From Fusobacterium perfoetens ATCC 29250 (GTDB taxonomy: Bacteria > Fusobacteriota > Fusobacteriia > Fusobacteriales > Fusobacteriaceae), in the NCBI RefSeq assembly GCF_000622245.1, contig NZ_JHXW01000006.1, positions 62,001 through 126,000 of the forward strand: a DNA stretch of 64,000 nucleotides, written 5' to 3'. Of this stretch, positions 618 through 18,450 are shown one piece after another (the first letter of the stretch is position 1; each line of letters begins with the position of its first letter). A program made the position numbers and the translations under genes. The notes under the pieces are model-generated. The model made no database searches. It saw nothing but the letters and a program-made list of their open reading frames with translations, and was not told where the DNA came from.

Positions 618-2033
618 CTAAAAAATATCATTTAATTTATAACTTTTTAAATTTTCTACTTCTTTTTCTATAAATTTATCTACAGATTCTATATGAGAAT
701 TTATACTTTTTTCTGAAGGTCCTCCTATTGTAGTTCTTTTTTCTACACATTTTTCTATACTTATTTCTTCATAAATATCATTTTCAAATAATTCTGAATA
801 AGTTTTATATTCTTCCATAGAAAGATTATCTAAAGTTTTTTTATTATCAATACAATAAGCAACTATACTTCCAACAATTTTATAAGCATCTCTGAAACTC
901 ATTCCTTTATTTGTTAAATAGTCAGCCACATCAGTAGCATTTATAAATCCATCATGACAAGCTTTTAACATATTTTCTTTTAAAGGTTTTGTTGTAGATA
1001 TCATTCCATTGAAAACATCTATACATTTTTTTACTGTATCAATAGCATCAAATAAAGCTTCTTTATCTTCTTGCATATCTTTATTATAAGCTAGTGGAAT
1101 TCCTTTCATTGTTGTTAATATGCTCATCATATCTCCAAAAACTCTTCCACTTTTTCCTCTTATAAGTTCAGCAGCATCTGGGTTTTTCTTTTGAGGCATA
1201 ATGCTACTTCCTGTTGAAAATTTATCACTTAATTCTATATAAGAAAAATCATTTGAAGAATAAACTACTATTTCTTCACAAAATCTTGATAAATGTACCA
1301 TTATTATAGATAAGTCACTTATGAAACTCATAACATGGTCTCTATCTGATACTCCATCTAAACTATTTGCTATAGGTCCTTTAAATCCTAATACTTTACT
1401 TGTATATTCCATATCTAATGGATAAGAAGTTCCAGCAAGAGCAGCTGAACCAAGTGGAGAATAATTTGTTAATTCAAAAGTATTTTCTAATCTTTTATAA
1501 TCTCTTTTAAACATTTCTACATAAGCTAATAAATAATGAGCAAAACTTATAGGTTGAGCTTTTTGTAAATGTGTAAATCCTGGCATATAAGTTTTTACAT
1601 TTTCTTTAGCCATTTTAATTAAAATTTCTATTAATTCCATTAAATATGATTGTACTTTTTTTATCTCATCTTTTATATAAAGTTTTAAATCTAAAGCACA
1701 TTGGTCATTTCTACTTCTTCCTGTATGAAGTTTTTTTCCTATATCTCCTATTCTATCAATAAGATTTTTTTCTACATTCATATGAATATCTTCGTATTCA
1801 ATAGAAAATTTAATTTTTTTACTTTCTATATCTTCTAATATTTCTCTCAAAGTTTTTTCTATAAGTTCAGCTTCCTCTACTGTAACTATTCCTTGTTTAC
1901 CTAAACCTCTTACATGAGCTATACTTCCCATAATATCATAATAAGCTAACTTATCCTCAAATTGAATTGTAGAATGAAACTCTAAAATTGAATTACTTGC
2001 TTTTTCTTTAAAACGTCCTGAAAAATATTGCAT
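618..2033 (-). CDS. argH: argininosuccinate lyase / ArgH-family lyase
   Basis: This 471-residue protein is full length for ArgH, a member of the fumarase/aspartase superfamily that cleaves argininosuccinate to arginine and fumarate. The superfamily blocks are present: SGRF at 5-8, TGRSRNDQ at 104-111, THLQKAQP at 154-161 and the signature GSSIMPQKKNP at 275-285 carrying the catalytic Ser loop. The start at 2033 has AAAGGGG upstream. It follows the transporter ATPase by 27 nt. No argG or other arginine synthesis gene is nearby. It could therefore be biosynthetic ArgH, or a relative that removes fumarate from another N-substituted aspartate taken up by the linked transporter. Family assignment is firm; the physiological substrate is inferred. 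Confidence 0.88.
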   Translation of the reverse strand: MQYFSGRFKEKASNSILEFHSTIQFEDKLAYYDIMGSIAHVRGLGKQGIVTVEEAELIEKTLREILEDIESKKIKFSIEYEDIHMNVEKNLIDRIGDIGKKLHTGRSRNDQCALDLKLYIKDEIKKVQSYLMELIEILIKMAKENVKTYMPGFTHLQKAQPISFAHYLLAYVEMFKRDYKRLENTFELTNYSPLGSAALAGTSYPLDMEYTSKVLGFKGPIANSLDGVSDRDHVMSFISDLSIIMVHLSRFCEEIVVYSSNDFSYIELSDKFSTGSSIMPQKKNPDAAELIRGKSGRVFGDMMSILTTMKGIPLAYNKDMQEDKEALFDAIDTVKKCIDVFNGMISTTKPLKENMLKACHDGFINATDVADYLTNKGMSFRDAYKIVGSIVAYCIDNKKTLDNLSMEEYKTYSELFENDIYEEISIEKCVEKRTTIGGPSEKSINSHIESVDKFIEKEVENLKSYKLNDIF

Positions 2034-2060: not shown

Positions 2061-2783
2061 TTATAACATTTTTTCTAAAAATTGACGAGCTCTATCTGTT
2101 TTTGGATTTGTGAAAAATTCCTCTGGTGTTGTATCTTCTAATAGATATCCATCTGATAAGAAACATATACGATTAGAAACTTCTCTAGCAAATTTCATTT
2201 CATGAGTTACAATTATCATAGTGATTCCTGTTTTTACTAATCCTCTTATAACCTCTAATACTTCTTTTACCATTTCTGGGTCTAAAGCTGATGTTGGTTC
2301 ATCAAATAAAAGAACATCTGGTTCCATAACAAGGGCTCTAACTATAGCAACCCTTTGTTTTTGTCCTCCTGATAATTTATCAGGATATTGGTCTTTTTTA
2401 TCTTCAAGTCCTATTTTTTTCAATAAATCTATAGATTTTTTTATTGCTTCCTCTTTATTCATTCCTTTTACATTTACAGGAGCATATATCATATTTTCTA
2501 AAACTGTCATATGTGGGAAAAGATTAAAATGTTGAAATACCATTCCTACTTTTTCTCTAATTTTCATTATATCAGTTTTTTTATCTGTAATATCTGTACT
2601 ATTAATTAATATTTTTCCATCTGTTGGAGTTTCTAAAAGATTTATACATCTTAATAATGTTGATTTTCCAGAACCTGAAGGTCCTATTATTGCTACTATT
2701 TCACCTTTTTTTATATTTAATGATATATCTTTTAAAACTTCTAAATTATTAAATTTTTTCTTTAAATTTTTAATTTCTATCAT
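2061..2783 (-). CDS. polar amino acid ABC transporter ATPase (GlnQ/ArtP type)
   Basis: A 240-residue ABC ATPase that would energise amino-acid import at the inner face of the membrane. Walker A is GPSGSGKST, the ABC signature is LSGGQKQRVAI, Walker B is VLLFDEPTSALDPE, and the switch His follows in IIVTHEM. Length and sequence match the GlnQ/HisP/ArtP group. Its start overlaps the end of the upstream binding-protein/permease gene by 14 nt, so the two are translationally coupled and form one transporter. The exact amino acid is not readable from the ATPase. Confidence 0.93.
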   Translation of the reverse strand: MIEIKNLKKKFNNLEVLKDISLNIKKGEIVAIIGPSGSGKSTLLRCINLLETPTDGKILINSTDITDKKTDIMKIREKVGMVFQHFNLFPHMTVLENMIYAPVNVKGMNKEEAIKKSIDLLKKIGLEDKKDQYPDKLSGGQKQRVAIVRALVMEPDVLLFDEPTSALDPEMVKEVLEVIRGLVKTGITMIIVTHEMKFAREVSNRICFLSDGYLLEDTTPEEFFTNPKTDRARQFLEKML

Positions 2784-5019
2784 TTTTTCTTAATCTCCCT
2801 TCTAATACATTTGCAAAACTTGTTAAAATCATAACTAAAACATAATACATTAAAGCAACTATTATGAATGGCTCAAAGGCTAAATATGTAACATTCATTA
2901 CAGTTTGTGAAGCACGCATCATATCAACAACTCCTATTGTAGAAACCAAAGATGATTCTTTTAATAAAGCTATCATTTCATTTACTAATCCTGGTAAAAC
3001 TACTTTTACAGCTTGAGGAATTACAATATCTTTCATCATTTTATAATATGGTACTCCTAAAGCCATTGCTGCTTCATATTGTCCTCTATCTATAGATTGA
3101 ATTCCTCCTCTTAATATTTCTGAAACATAAGCTGCTGAGTTTAATCCAAATGTTATTACAGCTGCATTAAGAGTTGGGATTTTATATCCTATAAGTTGAG
3201 GTGTAGCAAAATATACTAAGAATAGTTGTACTAATAATGGTGTTCCTCTAAATACTGATGTATAAATATTTGCAAATATTTGAAGAGGTTTTATTTTAGA
3301 AACTTTTACTAAAGCTAAAATTGTTCCTAATACAATTCCAGCCACTGCTGAAAGAAGAGTAAATTTCAATGAAATTACTAAACCATTTACAAATAATTTT
3401 TTATATTCTAATACTCTTCCAAAATGTAATTTTAATCCTTCATCTTTTATTTCATTATTATCTGAAACTTCATCTATTTTACTACTTTCATTTACTTTTG
3501 TAAATTCTTCTCCCATCCATTTTACAACTAATTTTTCTATTTCTCCAGATTCTTCTAATTCTGTTAAAGCTTTATTAAATATTTCTACTAATTCAGAGCC
3601 TTTTTGACATCCAATAGCATAAGAATCTGTAGATTTTACTTCTGATTCTGGAAGAACATGAAACTCTAAATTATTATATTTTTTCATAAATTCAGAAGCT
3701 TGTGAAGCATCTATTATAGCTGCATCAACTCTTTCATTTAATAATTCTTGCATTACTAAAGGACTGCTATTTAGTAATGTAACTTTTCCATCTTTAACTC
3801 TTTCAGCTATATTAGCATAATTTGTTCCAAATGTTGTTGCTATTTTTTTACCTTCTAATTTTTTTAATGAATATAAATTTTTATCTTTTAAACAAATTAT
3901 AGCTGTTTTTGGATAAAAATAATCTTTTGTAAAATCTATATTCTCTTTTCTTTCTTCTGTAGGAGATATTCCTGATAAAACAAAATCAGCTCTTTTACTT
4001 TGTAATGCTCCTACTAAACCACTAAACTCCATATTATTTACTTCATAAGTAAATCCTAATTTTTCTGATAAAAGTTTTGCTATATCCATATCAAAACCTA
4101 TTATTTCTTCTTTTCCATCTTCATTTAATTCTACTGATTCAAAAGGTGGAAAAGTAGCATTAACTGCCATTATTAAATGTTTTCCTGATAATGGTTTTGC
4201 TTTAAGATTTGTTATAAAACTTTCTCCTTCTTCTCCTAACCATTTTTTTGCTATTTCACTTAATTTTCCATTTTCTTTTAATGTTACTAATGCTTTATTA
4301 AATTCTTCTGTTAATGGAGAATCTTTTTGACATGCTATTGCAAATGATGAATTACTTGCTGGCGATTCTTTTTCTGATAATATATGATATGTTAATTTAG
4401 GTTGTTCTTTTACAAATTCTACTGCATGACGTCCATCTACTATAGCTCCTTCTACACGTCCACTTAATACTTCTTGTACTGCTACTACACTATTTTCTAA
4501 AGATACTAATTCTGCTCCCTTTACACCTTGAGCTATTTTTTCATAATTTGTTCCAAATGTTGTAGCTATTTTTTTACCTTCTAAACTTTTTAATGTTGAA
4601 TATTCTTTATCTCCTTTTAATGATATTATTGCTATTTTTGGAAAGAAATATCCATTTGTAAAATCTACACTTTTCTTTCTCTCTTCTGTTGGTGACATTC
4701 CTGAAATTATGAAATCTACCCTTTTACTTTGTAGTCCTCCTATTAAACTACTAAATTGTGTATTCATTATCTCATAAGTAAATCCTAATTCTTCTGATAA
4801 AGCTGTTGCTAAATCTACATCAAATCCCACTACTTTATTTTGTCCATTTTCATCTAAGGTAACATATTCTAATGGTGGAAAATTAGCACTTGTTGCCATT
4901 ACAAAATGTTTTCCTTCAAAAGTTTTTTTATTTTCAGCAATAGTATTTGTAAAAAATCCTACAAATACAATTAACATTGCTAAAAATTTTAAAATTTGTT
5001 TTTTTAATAATTCGTTCAT
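2770..5019 (-). CDS. fused amino acid ABC transporter: two binding domains plus permease
   Basis: This 749-residue protein joins three modules. Residues 1-28 are a signal or anchor segment (ends NTIAEN). Residues about 36-265 and 280-508 are two family-3 solute-binding domains that are clearly duplicated, sharing blocks such as SPTEERK and GKKIATTFGTNY. Residues about 540-740 are a HisM/GlnP-type permease with the EAA loop GQYEAAMALGVP. An acidic linker joins the second binding domain to the permease. The arrangement resembles lactococcal GlnP, where two tethered receptors feed one translocator. It overlaps its ATPase gene by 14 nt and lies 27 nt after the racemase gene. Specificity is unknown; an Arg-rich leader peptide upstream hints at a cationic or Arg-related ligand. 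Confidence 0.92.
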   Translation of the reverse strand: MNELLKKQILKFLAMLIVFVGFFTNTIAENKKTFEGKHFVMATSANFPPLEYVTLDENGQNKVVGFDVDLATALSEELGFTYEIMNTQFSSLIGGLQSKRVDFIISGMSPTEERKKSVDFTNGYFFPKIAIISLKGDKEYSTLKSLEGKKIATTFGTNYEKIAQGVKGAELVSLENSVVAVQEVLSGRVEGAIVDGRHAVEFVKEQPKLTYHILSEKESPASNSSFAIACQKDSPLTEEFNKALVTLKENGKLSEIAKKWLGEEGESFITNLKAKPLSGKHLIMAVNATFPPFESVELNEDGKEEIIGFDMDIAKLLSEKLGFTYEVNNMEFSGLVGALQSKRADFVLSGISPTEERKENIDFTKDYFYPKTAIICLKDKNLYSLKKLEGKKIATTFGTNYANIAERVKDGKVTLLNSSPLVMQELLNERVDAAIIDASQASEFMKKYNNLEFHVLPESEVKSTDSYAIGCQKGSELVEIFNKALTELEESGEIEKLVVKWMGEEFTKVNESSKIDEVSDNNEIKDEGLKLHFGRVLEYKKLFVNGLVISLKFTLLSAVAGIVLGTILALVKVSKIKPLQIFANIYTSVFRGTPLLVQLFLVYFATPQLIGYKIPTLNAAVITFGLNSAAYVSEILRGGIQSIDRGQYEAAMALGVPYYKMMKDIVIPQAVKVVLPGLVNEMIALLKESSLVSTIGVVDMMRASQTVMNVTYLAFEPFIIVALMYYVLVMILTSFANVLEGRLRKNDRN

Positions 5020-5046
5020 TTACTCCTCCTAAAAAATAATTAAATT

Positions 5047-5775
5047 TTATATATTACCATTTCCCCAAGAACGATTTTTCTCTTCTGGAAATGGATATGA
5101 GACTTTACTATGGGCTAATTTTTGATAATATATTAACTCTGCCATTAAAACTAAATTAAAAGCTGGATCTATAACTGGAATATTCAATTCTTTTGATATT
5201 TCTTCTGCCATTCCTAAAAAACTTAAACATCCTAATATTATAACTTCTGCTCCATCTTCTATTACTTTTTTACTAGTTTCTAGTAAAAGTTTTTTTAAAT
5301 TTTTTTTATCTTTATGTATATTTTCCAATGAAGTATTTATACTTCTAATAGAACAAAGTCTTGTAAAATCTACTCCTGAATTTCTCACAAATTCTTTTTT
5401 TTCAGGAATTCTTCTATCAAATGTGGTTATTATTGAAAAAGAATATCCTAATCCACAAGCTATTTGTAAAGAACACTGTCCTCCTCCAATTACAGGAATT
5501 TTTAATAATTCTCTACATGCTTCAATAGCTGGGTCACTTAAACAATAAATAGCTACTACATCATACCCTTCTTTTTCTGCTTCAATAGCTATTTTTATTA
5601 TTTCTCCAGAAGCTAAATATACATCTGTTTTAGAATCAATTTCAATATTCCCATTTTTAGGACAATCCATAGAAATAATCGTATCTTTTCTTACTACAGT
5701 TTTTAATATTTTTATCCTTTCATCTAGCTCTTTTCTTGTTAGTCCAGCATCTGGATTAATAATTTTTAATTTCAT
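5047..5775 (-). CDS. Asp/Glu/hydantoin racemase family protein
   Basis: A 242-residue cytoplasmic protein with the two-cysteine layout of cofactor-independent Asp/Glu/hydantoin racemases: Cys78 in AIYCLSDPA and Cys183 in ILGCLSF, the usual acid/base pair for moving a proton at the alpha carbon. INPDAG near the N-terminus and the PVIGGGQCS strand also fit this family, especially the hydantoin/allantoin racemase branch. The start at 5775 follows GGAGTGAAGT. It is the first structural gene after the leader and terminator at 5802-5991 and heads the transporter operon. Racemisation of the imported compound is the natural reading, but the substrate is not proven. Confidence 0.85.
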   Translation of the reverse strand: MKLKIINPDAGLTRKELDERIKILKTVVRKDTIISMDCPKNGNIEIDSKTDVYLASGEIIKIAIEAEKEGYDVVAIYCLSDPAIEACRELLKIPVIGGGQCSLQIACGLGYSFSIITTFDRRIPEKKEFVRNSGVDFTRLCSIRSINTSLENIHKDKKNLKKLLLETSKKVIEDGAEVIILGCLSFLGMAEEISKELNIPVIDPAFNLVLMAELIYYQKLAHSKVSYPFPEEKNRSWGNGNI

Positions 5776-5801
5776 ACTTCACTCCTATCTATTTTTTGGG
5801 T

Positions 5802-5844
5802 AATAAAAAAAGCCAGTCAGTTTTTCAAAAACTAATCTGGCTTT
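5802..5844 (-). terminator. leader terminator / attenuator before racemase operon
   Basis: On the minus strand AAAGCCAG pairs with CTGGCTTT (5809-5816 with 5837-5844), an inner AGTTTT/AAAACT helix extends it, and a run of seven U follows. It sits between the leader ORF (5911-5991) and the racemase start at 5775, downstream of the only good promoter. It must therefore be read through for the operon to be expressed, which is the hallmark of an attenuator. Confidence 0.72.
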
Positions 5845-5910
5845 AAATTTCTAATTTAACAAAATTAATAAGTATTTAAACTTTCTTTAATAATAATTAA
5901 AAACAAAATG

Positions 5911-5991
5911 CTATATAAGTTTTGGAAATGACAAAATAAAACGATATTCTTTTTTCATTATATTTTGTTTCCTTGACCTTAGGTTTAGCAT
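5911..5991 (-). CDS. 26-residue putative leader peptide (Arg-containing)
   Basis: ATG at 5991 is preceded by a perfect GGAGGAG at 5996-6002 with 4 nt spacing, and the frame stops at TAG 5911. The peptide begins MLNLRSRK and ends FPKLI. Its codons are unusual for this window: Arg is AGG, AGG and CGT rather than the dominant AGA, and Leu is CTA, CTA, TTG and CTT. It starts about 25 nt after the predicted transcription start and ends about 65 nt before an intrinsic terminator. That layout matches an attenuation leader whose translation speed or arrest controls the terminator. No homologue is known to me; the regulatory role is inferred. Confidence 0.55.
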   Translation of the reverse strand: MLNLRSRKQNIMKKEYRFILSFPKLI

Positions 5992-6023
5992 TTTTCTCCT
6001 CCATTTATTTTTATTTGATAAGA

Positions 6024-6052
6024 ATTATATTACATTGTTTTTTAAATGTCAA
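6024..6052 (-). promoter_or_regulatory. sigma70 promoter of racemase-transporter-argH operon
   Basis: On the minus strand TTGACA (6047-6052) and TATAAT (6024-6029) are both perfect consensus with a 17-nt spacer. This is among the strongest promoters visible in the window. The transcript would begin near 6017 and carry the leader ORF and attenuator. Confidence 0.82.
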
Positions 6053-6086
6053 TAATTTTTTTGTTTTTTTATATAAATTATTTATA

Positions 6087-6115
6087 TTGACAATTTTTAT
6101 TTTTAATAATAAACT
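6087..6115 (+). promoter_or_regulatory. divergent promoter for YchJ-like gene
   Basis: TTGACA at 6087-6092, 17-nt spacer and TAAACT at 6110-6115 (4 of 6 matches), 25 nt before the ATG at 6140. It is back to back with the promoter at 6024-6052, leaving about 35 bp for shared control. Confidence 0.6.
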
Positions 6116-6139
6116 ATAAAAAAAGATTAGGAGGATTAT

Positions 6140-6460
6140 ATGGCAAATCCAAAAACTGCTCTTGAGCTTATGCAAGCTAGATACGAAGCTTATGTTCAAG
6201 GAGATATAGATTTTATAAAGAAGACTCATGATCCAAAAACTGCTAAAGGAATTAATTGGAAAGATGCTGAAGAATGGTCTAAAAATTCTCTTTGGTTTGG
6301 ACTTGAAATTATTGAAACTATAAGAGGTACTCAATTTGATACTGATGGTATTGTTGAATTTAAAGCTTTTTACAAGGATAAAATATCTGGTAAAGAATTT
6401 ATTCATCATGAGAGAAGTTACTTTGTAAAAAAAGGTAGACATTGGTATTATAAAGGTTGA
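6140..6460 (+). CDS. YchJ-like NTF2-fold domain protein
   Basis: A 106-residue soluble protein. The order ALELMQARYEAYVQGDIDFI, then W-rich segments, FDTDGIVEFKAFYKD, and the end HERSYFVKKGRHWYYKG matches the central NTF2-like domain of the YchJ/UPF0225 family. In that family the domain normally lies between Cys-rich SEC-C motifs. This copy has no SEC-C motif at either end, but a separate 51-residue Cys-rich gene follows 39 nt later. The RBS is AGGAGG before ATG 6140. Function of the family is poorly known, so no activity is assigned. Confidence 0.75.
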   Translation: MANPKTALELMQARYEAYVQGDIDFIKKTHDPKTAKGINWKDAEEWSKNSLWFGLEIIETIRGTQFDTDGIVEFKAFYKDKISGKEFIHHERSYFVKKGRHWYYKG

Positions 6461-6499
6461 CTTCCAATAGATTAATTTTTAAGAGAAATTAGGAAAAAT

Positions 6500-6655
6500 A
6501 TGGAATTAGAAAATTATCAAAAAGAATTGAATAAAATTTTAAAAGGCTGCGATATTTGTAAAGCTAAAATGTGTAACTTCTGTCCTAATGGAAAAAGAAA
6601 GAAATTTTTAAAAGAAAAAATAAAAAAACTTTCTTCCCCAAAAAAATTTTTTTGA
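6500..6655 (+). CDS. 51-residue Cys-rich protein, possibly a detached SEC-C-like module
   Basis: ATG at 6500 with AGGA upstream opens a 51-codon frame ending at TGA 6655, followed by a strong terminator. The middle carries C-x2-C-x4-C-x2-C (residues 17-28: GCDICKAKMCNFC) and then PNGKRKKF, which is reminiscent of a degraded SEC-C zinc motif. The tail is Lys-rich. Because YchJ proteins usually contain SEC-C motifs next to the NTF2-like domain, this may be a split-off zinc module partner of the gene before it. That link is inference; the frame itself looks genuine. Confidence 0.6.
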   Translation: MELENYQKELNKILKGCDICKAKMCNFCPNGKRKKFLKEKIKKLSSPKKFF

Positions 6656-6684
6656 AAAAATTAAAAAATATATTTAAGTAATAA

Positions 6685-6725
6685 AAAAAGAGATGTTTAT
6701 AACTTACAACATCTCTTTTATTTTT
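6685..6725. terminator. bidirectional terminator between YchJ-like locus and guaB
   Basis: AAAAGAGATGTT (6686-6697) pairs with AACATCTCTTTT (6708-6719) around a 10-nt loop. It has U-rich tails in both directions, so it can end the plus-strand Cys-rich gene and the minus-strand guaB. Confidence 0.85.
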
Positions 6726-6745
6726 ATAATATTATTTATTTTATC

Positions 6746-8224
<1,479 letters not shown>

Positions 8225-18274: not shown

Positions 18275-18352
18275 CTTTTTATCTCCTTTATTTTAAAAAT
18301 GATTACACCAATCATTAAAACAAAACGAAAGAAGTCTATATATTTTTAATCA

Positions 18353-18419
18353 CTTATAGTCTGTAAATTTAAGGTTTACAGGTAGAAACTCGTTGTCCAT
18401 ATTACAACCATTATATAAG
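18353..18419 (-). promoter_or_regulatory. purine riboswitch, guanine class
   Basis: On the minus strand P1 is CTTATA/TATAAG, and the J1/2 TATAAT-like segment is present. P2 is GTTGT/ACAAC around AATATGG, J2/3 is AGTTTCTACC, P3 is TGTAAA/TTTACA around CCTTAAA, and J3/1 is GACTA. These are the conserved elements of the purine riboswitch three-way junction. The C in GACTA is the specificity base that pairs with guanine or hypoxanthine; adenine switches have U there. Its position before purE predicts that guanine shuts the operon off. Confidence 0.94.
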
Positions 18420-18450
18420 CTTCTTTGAGGTCTAATTTTAAGAATAAGAT

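Follow-up and report, generated by a model that had tools for sequence, protein, structure and literature searches.

Genes and leader at the locus

The window, by which we mean the whole 64-kb stretch of DNA analysed, contains a minus-strand operon of the following genes, listed in the direction of transcription:

5047–5775, minus strand: Asp/Glu/hydantoin racemase family gene, first in the operon (PF01177; nearest solved relatives are hydantoin and allantoin racemases)
2770–5019, minus strand: SBP-SBP-permease fusion of a polar amino acid ABC transporter (TIGR01096, Lys/Arg/Orn SBP, 259 bits, cut-off 256)
2061–2783, minus strand: ABC transporter ATPase, polar amino acid type (profile matches)
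618–2033, minus strand: argH, argininosuccinate lyase (TIGR00838, 609 bits, cut-off 280)

The PF01177, TIGR01096 and TIGR00838 matches bear out the racemase-transporter-argH order that an earlier note on this DNA had placed after a terminator. ArtJ is among the solved relatives of the fusion, which joins two substrate-binding domains to one permease domain, and within the family searched its full-length form (E<=1e-100) was found only in the species of the window and in a congeneric genome, G005. Upstream of the racemase gene lies a leader region with these features:

6047–6052, minus strand: −35 box TTGACA (12/12 sigma70 match with the −10 box, 17-nt spacer)
6024–6029, minus strand: −10 box TATAAT
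5996–6002, minus strand: Shine-Dalgarno sequence GGAGGAG, read directly
5911–5991, minus strand: putative leader peptide ORF MLNLRSRKQNIMKKEYRFILSFPKLI, 26 codons (ATG at 5991, stop TAG at 5913–5911)
5971–5979, minus strand: putative control codons AGG TCA AGG, codons 5–7 (AGG-x-AGG recurs before arginine genes)
5962–5972, minus strand: arm 1, GGAAACAAAAT, predicted to pair with arm 2 as a protector hairpin (MFE and centroid folds; block identical in G005)
5917–5937, minus strand: arm 2, predicted to pair through ATTTTGTCATTTCC with arm 1 and through CCAAAACTT (5925–5917) with arm 3
5826–5844, minus strand: arm 3, the 5' arm of the terminator (predicted fold)
5809–5844, minus strand: intrinsic terminator hairpin AAAGCCAGATTAGTTTTTGAAAAACTGACTGGCTTT-TTTT, U-tract 5810–5804 (−16.1 kcal/mol)

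The promoter (6052–6024) is the only perfect TTGACA-17-TATAAT arrangement that our scan found within 5000–7000, and transcription would start near 6017. The perfect sigma70 promoter and the 26-codon ORF with its GGAGGAG are as the earlier note had described them, and the rarity in the window that it ascribed to AGG, AGG and CGT (codon 17) holds in the long ORFs, where AGG occurs 19 times and CGT 30 times among 16969 codons. AGG thus has a frequency of 1.1 per 1000 codons, and since AGA occurs 532 times, finding AGG at both codons 5 and 7 is unusual. The combination of a Shine-Dalgarno sequence, a short ORF and two close AGG codons has a single instance in the 64 kb, this leader; shuffled windows gave 0.35 such leaders per window, with promoter and terminator not required.

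An overlapping 35-aa ORF in another frame (ATG at 6004) is without a Shine-Dalgarno sequence and its frame is not conserved. The intergenic region is shared with a divergent gene for a YchJ-middle-domain protein (6140–6460, plus strand), which has a promoter-like site, TTGACA/TAAACT, at 6087–6115. Elsewhere in the window there is a purine riboswitch aptamer (18337–18438, minus strand; RF00167, 80 bits).

Predicted folding of the window leader

The terminator noticed earlier after the leader ORF, a hairpin with a U-tract spanning 5844–5804, begins 69 nt past the leader stop; a simple terminator scan missed it because its stem is bulged. The whole leader folds better than shuffled sequences (z −3.9), and a protector hairpin between arms 1 and 2 is predicted over the ORF, with the stop codon beside arm 2, in both species that have the operon. 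When a stall at codon 5 or 7 is modelled, arm 2 is predicted to pair with arm 3. This helix (CCAAAACTT / AGTTTTTGA) is weak, at −6.2 kcal/mol, and does not outperform swapped arms, and the antiterminator scores z 1.1 against shuffles. Equilibrium folding favoured the terminator in every ribosome state (0.94), so a switch in this leader must be kinetic, and the antiterminator of the window's own leader is a model prediction with putative arms.

The leader in the nearest relative

Among seven genomes of the genus examined, the operon is also present in G005 only. There the leader peptide is identical at 24/26 residues and 23/26 codons with both AGG codons kept, the terminator differs by a single base change in its loop, and the pairing of arms 2 and 3 is predicted to be conserved. 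ORF and terminator, on whose conservation in relatives the earlier proposal had been made to depend, are thus both retained. The stem that closes the ORF hairpin is ATGCTA...TAGCAT in the window and ACACTA...TAGTGT in G005, with the pairing kept and the bases different. The two species share a run of identical codons (P about 0.002 to 0.04, depending on the gene), which weakly suggests constraint at the RNA level. The FPKLI end of the peptide is conserved in this nearest relative only; the C-terminal pattern YRFILSFPKLI has mismatch-free matches in the two species only, the others looking like chance. A DNA similarity search with the leader returned one true relative, the remaining matches being AT-rich noise or promoter boxes.

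Leaders of the same design elsewhere in the order

Among the genomes examined, non-homologous arginine-codon leaders that share this anatomy were found in nine Fusobacteriaceae-like genera, an assignment inferred from base composition and from the family and genus layout of the relatives. The genes that follow them are argH, permease-argH, SBP-argG, argG-argH, ABC permeases, carA and an amidohydrolase gene. In G001, G002 and G003, which belong to the same genus as the window's species, and in G018 from another, argH comes first after an AGG-containing short ORF and a terminator; the leader peptides are MLFTLLRRLKYKN, MKTMLLRKQINI..., MLSLFRRNQI and MKLRQRHIKIQI. The G003 contig begins inside the leader, which places the promoter outside the contig, and a promoter, Shine-Dalgarno sequence and short ORF are present in most relatives shown. 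Further leaders came from a scan of loci, where they precede permease-argH, argG-argH, SBP and ABC permease genes, and from in-frame matches of an SD-ATG-AGGxxxAGG pattern, where the genes that follow are those for SBPs, ABC permeases, carA and an amidohydrolase. Counts of the AGG pattern alone were modestly above the control, the informative cases being the in-frame matches read individually. A scan of a contig collection that does not include the window genome and its near relatives gave mainly Firmicutes argH. Four further candidates (L250, L254, L332 and L333) were rejected as false leads lying inside or between other genes.

The window's own genome has four arginine-codon leaders in all. 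The other three, each with a terminator, precede SBP-argG (L243, G000:C5), a third SBP gene (L327, G000:C8; MLQSLKLRNFYTV...) and an ABC permease-ATPase-SBP operon (L326, G000:C3; MLFMTRQERNRKF). A second family of the order has leaders encoding MKLVRRIRERK..., MKLVVRIRES..., MKMIRRIRDNKFT and MKLVTRIRDNRR in front of argC, with argJ and argB after argC in the single locus examined downstream. These argC leaders (L328, L329, L330 and L331) have the pattern MK-x-x-x-R-I-R, with AGG ATA AGG, and tandem hairpins before the gene. In the G+C-rich genome G016 the SBP leader has AGG CAA AGG. Across these leaders the early AGG codons and the terminator are kept before arginine genes and the remaining leader sequence varies, which is the pattern of conserved arginine codons with varied flanks that had been put forward as support for attenuation.

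Details differ between some leaders. The carA leader of L256 (minus strand, reverse-complement position 610; MKRFRSVIRKF..., three AGG codons) has a terminator that extends over the stop codon of the leader, which sets it apart from the other leaders. At L080, L078, L082 and L083, two tandem terminator-like hairpins follow the arginine leader before argH or permease-argH.

This recurrence bears on whether the leader might be a separate small-protein or small-RNA gene that ends at its own terminator, with the operon served by another promoter or by plain read-through. Such a gene would account for the strong promoter and for a strong terminator that always forms in equilibrium folding. However, scanning 5776–5910 on the minus strand gave no promoter, unrelated leaders share the same codon choice before arginine-type genes, and the order promoter-terminator-gene is constant; we regard this explanation as highly improbable.

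Codon choice and tRNA

In 25 leaders found via the downstream gene, AGG accounts for 42/52 early arginine codons, against a background share of 3.3% of arginine codons in window genes, a figure that comes from one genome; some of the 25 were picked by a scan that required two nearby arginine codons of any kind. AGG was not used for locus choice where leaders were located via the downstream gene, that is argH-first (three congeners and one other genus), permease-argH and the SBP orthologues. The SBP orthologue leaders have AGG at codon 8 in 14/14 cases and at codon 10 in 12/14, the remaining two having AAA (Lys) at codon 10. Both of these (L265 and L266) have a further AGG close to the ORF end. 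Within the tRNA loci scanned, which were most but not all, we found one CCU, two UCU and one UCG tRNA-Arg gene. In theory, rare control codons raise the sensitivity of an attenuator, and rare codons read by a starvation-sensitive isoacceptor are predicted to sharpen attenuation (PMC1183508). On the sequence evidence, it is the choice between synonymous codons (AGG over AGA) that is under selection rather than the peptide.

That codon preference weighs on the alternative raised in the earlier note, arrest by the peptide itself. An R-x-R motif or the FPKLI end would then stall the ribosome, with arginine, some other metabolite or a macrolide as the trigger, in the manner of +x+ macrolide leaders and the fungal arginine attenuator peptide. 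R-x-R is common in these leaders, and the two SBP leaders that have lost the second AGG keep the positive charge (R-x-K). In addition, an R-L-R uORF before hflX has been tied to antibiotic-type stalling (PMC8632094). Arrest is nevertheless made less likely by selection for AGG over AGA, as seen in the excess of AGG among early arginine codons over background; moreover, the peptide ends vary from one leader family to the next, some of the peptides contain R-R or just one R, and the genes downstream are arginine genes and not resistance genes. We therefore consider nascent-peptide arrest very unlikely. A macrolide-sensing +x+ leader in particular was rejected, as R-x-R occurs in many leaders but they stand before arginine genes and show selection at the codon level.

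Predicted antiterminator pairing across leader families

Pairing was modelled on the transcript just before arm 4 is made, with ribosomes at different places. In 42 leaders, the predicted upstream engagement of arm 3 was 0.73 with the ribosome stalled at the arginine codons, 0.45 with the ribosome at the stop and 0.39 with none; by leader, the stalled value exceeded the stop value in 35 and the ribosome-free value in 38. Compared with dinucleotide shuffles, 30/31 leaders lay above the mean (mean z 1.28). Cognate arm 2:3 duplexes were stronger than permuted or swapped ones over 22 leader families (z −4.4 to −5.0, P<=5e-5), although the leaders are partly related and P values are therefore overstated. 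Within the SBP family, the cognate assignment of arms in six lineages ranks 2 of 720. Here one lineage pairs AATGTTGCT of arm 2 with GGTAACATT and another AATG-ATCTG with CAGAT-CATT, while the lineage with TTTTG-AATG in arm 2 has the partner CATTCAAAA, and other lineages have TTTTT and CATTAAAA. The suggestion that an antiterminator would pair with the terminator arm is thus borne out across families, but in the window leader itself the pairing is weak and not specific.

Search for other regulators

ArgR (PF01316) was above the cut-off in 0/96 genomes of the order and in 8/14 control genomes, and on this count an ArgR-controlled operon was rejected. Arginine T-boxes exist in other bacteria (PMC1262725), and the leader could accordingly be a T-box or an arginine riboswitch in which the ORF is incidental. 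Rfam gave no match to the window leader, even at lax thresholds, and no T-box or other regulatory family in the 14 leader loci. Furthermore, it is the ORF, Shine-Dalgarno sequence and codon choice that are conserved and not the surrounding RNA, and an RNA sensor of this kind is extremely unlikely. A uORF of the rbfL type that occludes the ribosome-binding site was also rejected, as the leader stops at 5911, the racemase gene starts at 5775 and there is no overlap with its ribosome-binding site.

Proposed mechanism

The region is very probably a ribosome-mediated transcription attenuator of the trp/his type that senses arginine through charged tRNA-Arg at AGG. Arginine-responsive attenuation through a leader peptide, the main proposal of the earlier note, gains from the recurrence of early AGG codons with a terminator before arginine genes and from arm 2:3 pairing that tracks sequence change across families. 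The evidence, all of it from sequence, consists of the anatomy, the codon choice, its conservation, its recurrence before arginine genes, the cognate arm pairing across families and the lack of an ArgR above cut-off; from it we infer stalling, antitermination, the direction of the response and the exact arms in the window leader.

RNA polymerase would start near 6017 and a ribosome would translate the leader. With ample charged tRNA-Arg, the ribosome would pass both AGG codons and reach the stop directly after arm 2, which it would cover, so that arms 3 and 4 form the terminator and transcription stops near 5805. Under arginine shortage, a stall at AGG codon 5 or 7 would place the ribosome over arm 1, leaving arm 2 free to pair with arm 3 and allowing read-through into racemase-transporter-argH. 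This would bring import of arginine or its precursors, together with arginine from the cleavage of argininosuccinate.

Relation to known systems

Ribosome-mediated attenuators of the trp/his/leu/thr/phe type are known from Proteobacteria and from some Actinobacteria and Firmicutes. The leaders described here resemble them in having early codons for the pathway amino acid, a stop beside arm 2, predicted 1:2, 2:3 and 3:4 alternatives and an intrinsic terminator. They differ in that the amino acid is arginine, in relying on one rare synonymous codon, AGG, usually as two copies spaced by one codon and not as a run, and in serving many operons of one order with no ArgR above cut-off.

Arginine codons in a leader ORF (there AGG CGG) also sense arginine shortage in Salmonella orf34-speF, although the target is ornithine decarboxylase rather than an operon for making or importing arginine, and control is by Rho, mRNA decay and unfolding of the ribosome-binding site, without an intrinsic terminator (PMC6386406). 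In S. aureus rbfL-rbf, low arginine slows the ribosome at AGA/AGG codons of an 8-aa leader, but control is translational: the leader covers the ribosome-binding site of rbf, a biofilm regulator gene, and represses at low arginine (PMC13009471). The window leader, in contrast, has its stop about 135 nt before the gene, with a terminator in between. Paired control codons and a terminator also mark the uORFC-8-2 motif before cysS in Rhodobacterales, for which ribosome-mediated attenuation is predicted, but the codons are for cysteine and the motif serves one gene in Alphaproteobacteria (PMC8632094). ArgR regulation and arginine T-boxes put the same kinds of gene under arginine control but through protein or tRNA-binding RNA sensors, and a survey of Actinobacteria detected no RNA element upstream of arginine operons (PMC1262725).

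In the open-licence literature we found neither an arginine transcription attenuator for bacterial arginine genes nor any account of leaders like these in Fusobacteria; given that scope, priority is not certain. The kind of attenuator is already known, with arginine as the sensed amino acid apparently new, and the system is larger than the earlier note proposed.

Implications

Extending this to the order, we lean towards the view that these bacteria, without an ArgR, run an arginine regulon (uptake, argG, argH, carA and argCJB) by many separately evolved AGG attenuators, whose common signal would be the charging of the AGG-reading tRNA-Arg, probably the single-copy CCU species. If the proposal is true, arginine would join the amino acids that ribosome-mediated transcription attenuators sense, and the range of this mechanism would gain a further bacterial group. 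A number of short ORFs upstream of arginine genes would be accounted for, and the differing leaders with one shared rare codon would form a natural series well suited to testing the theory that attenuators use the isoacceptor most sensitive to starvation. It would also explain how arginine is sensed in a group without ArgR.
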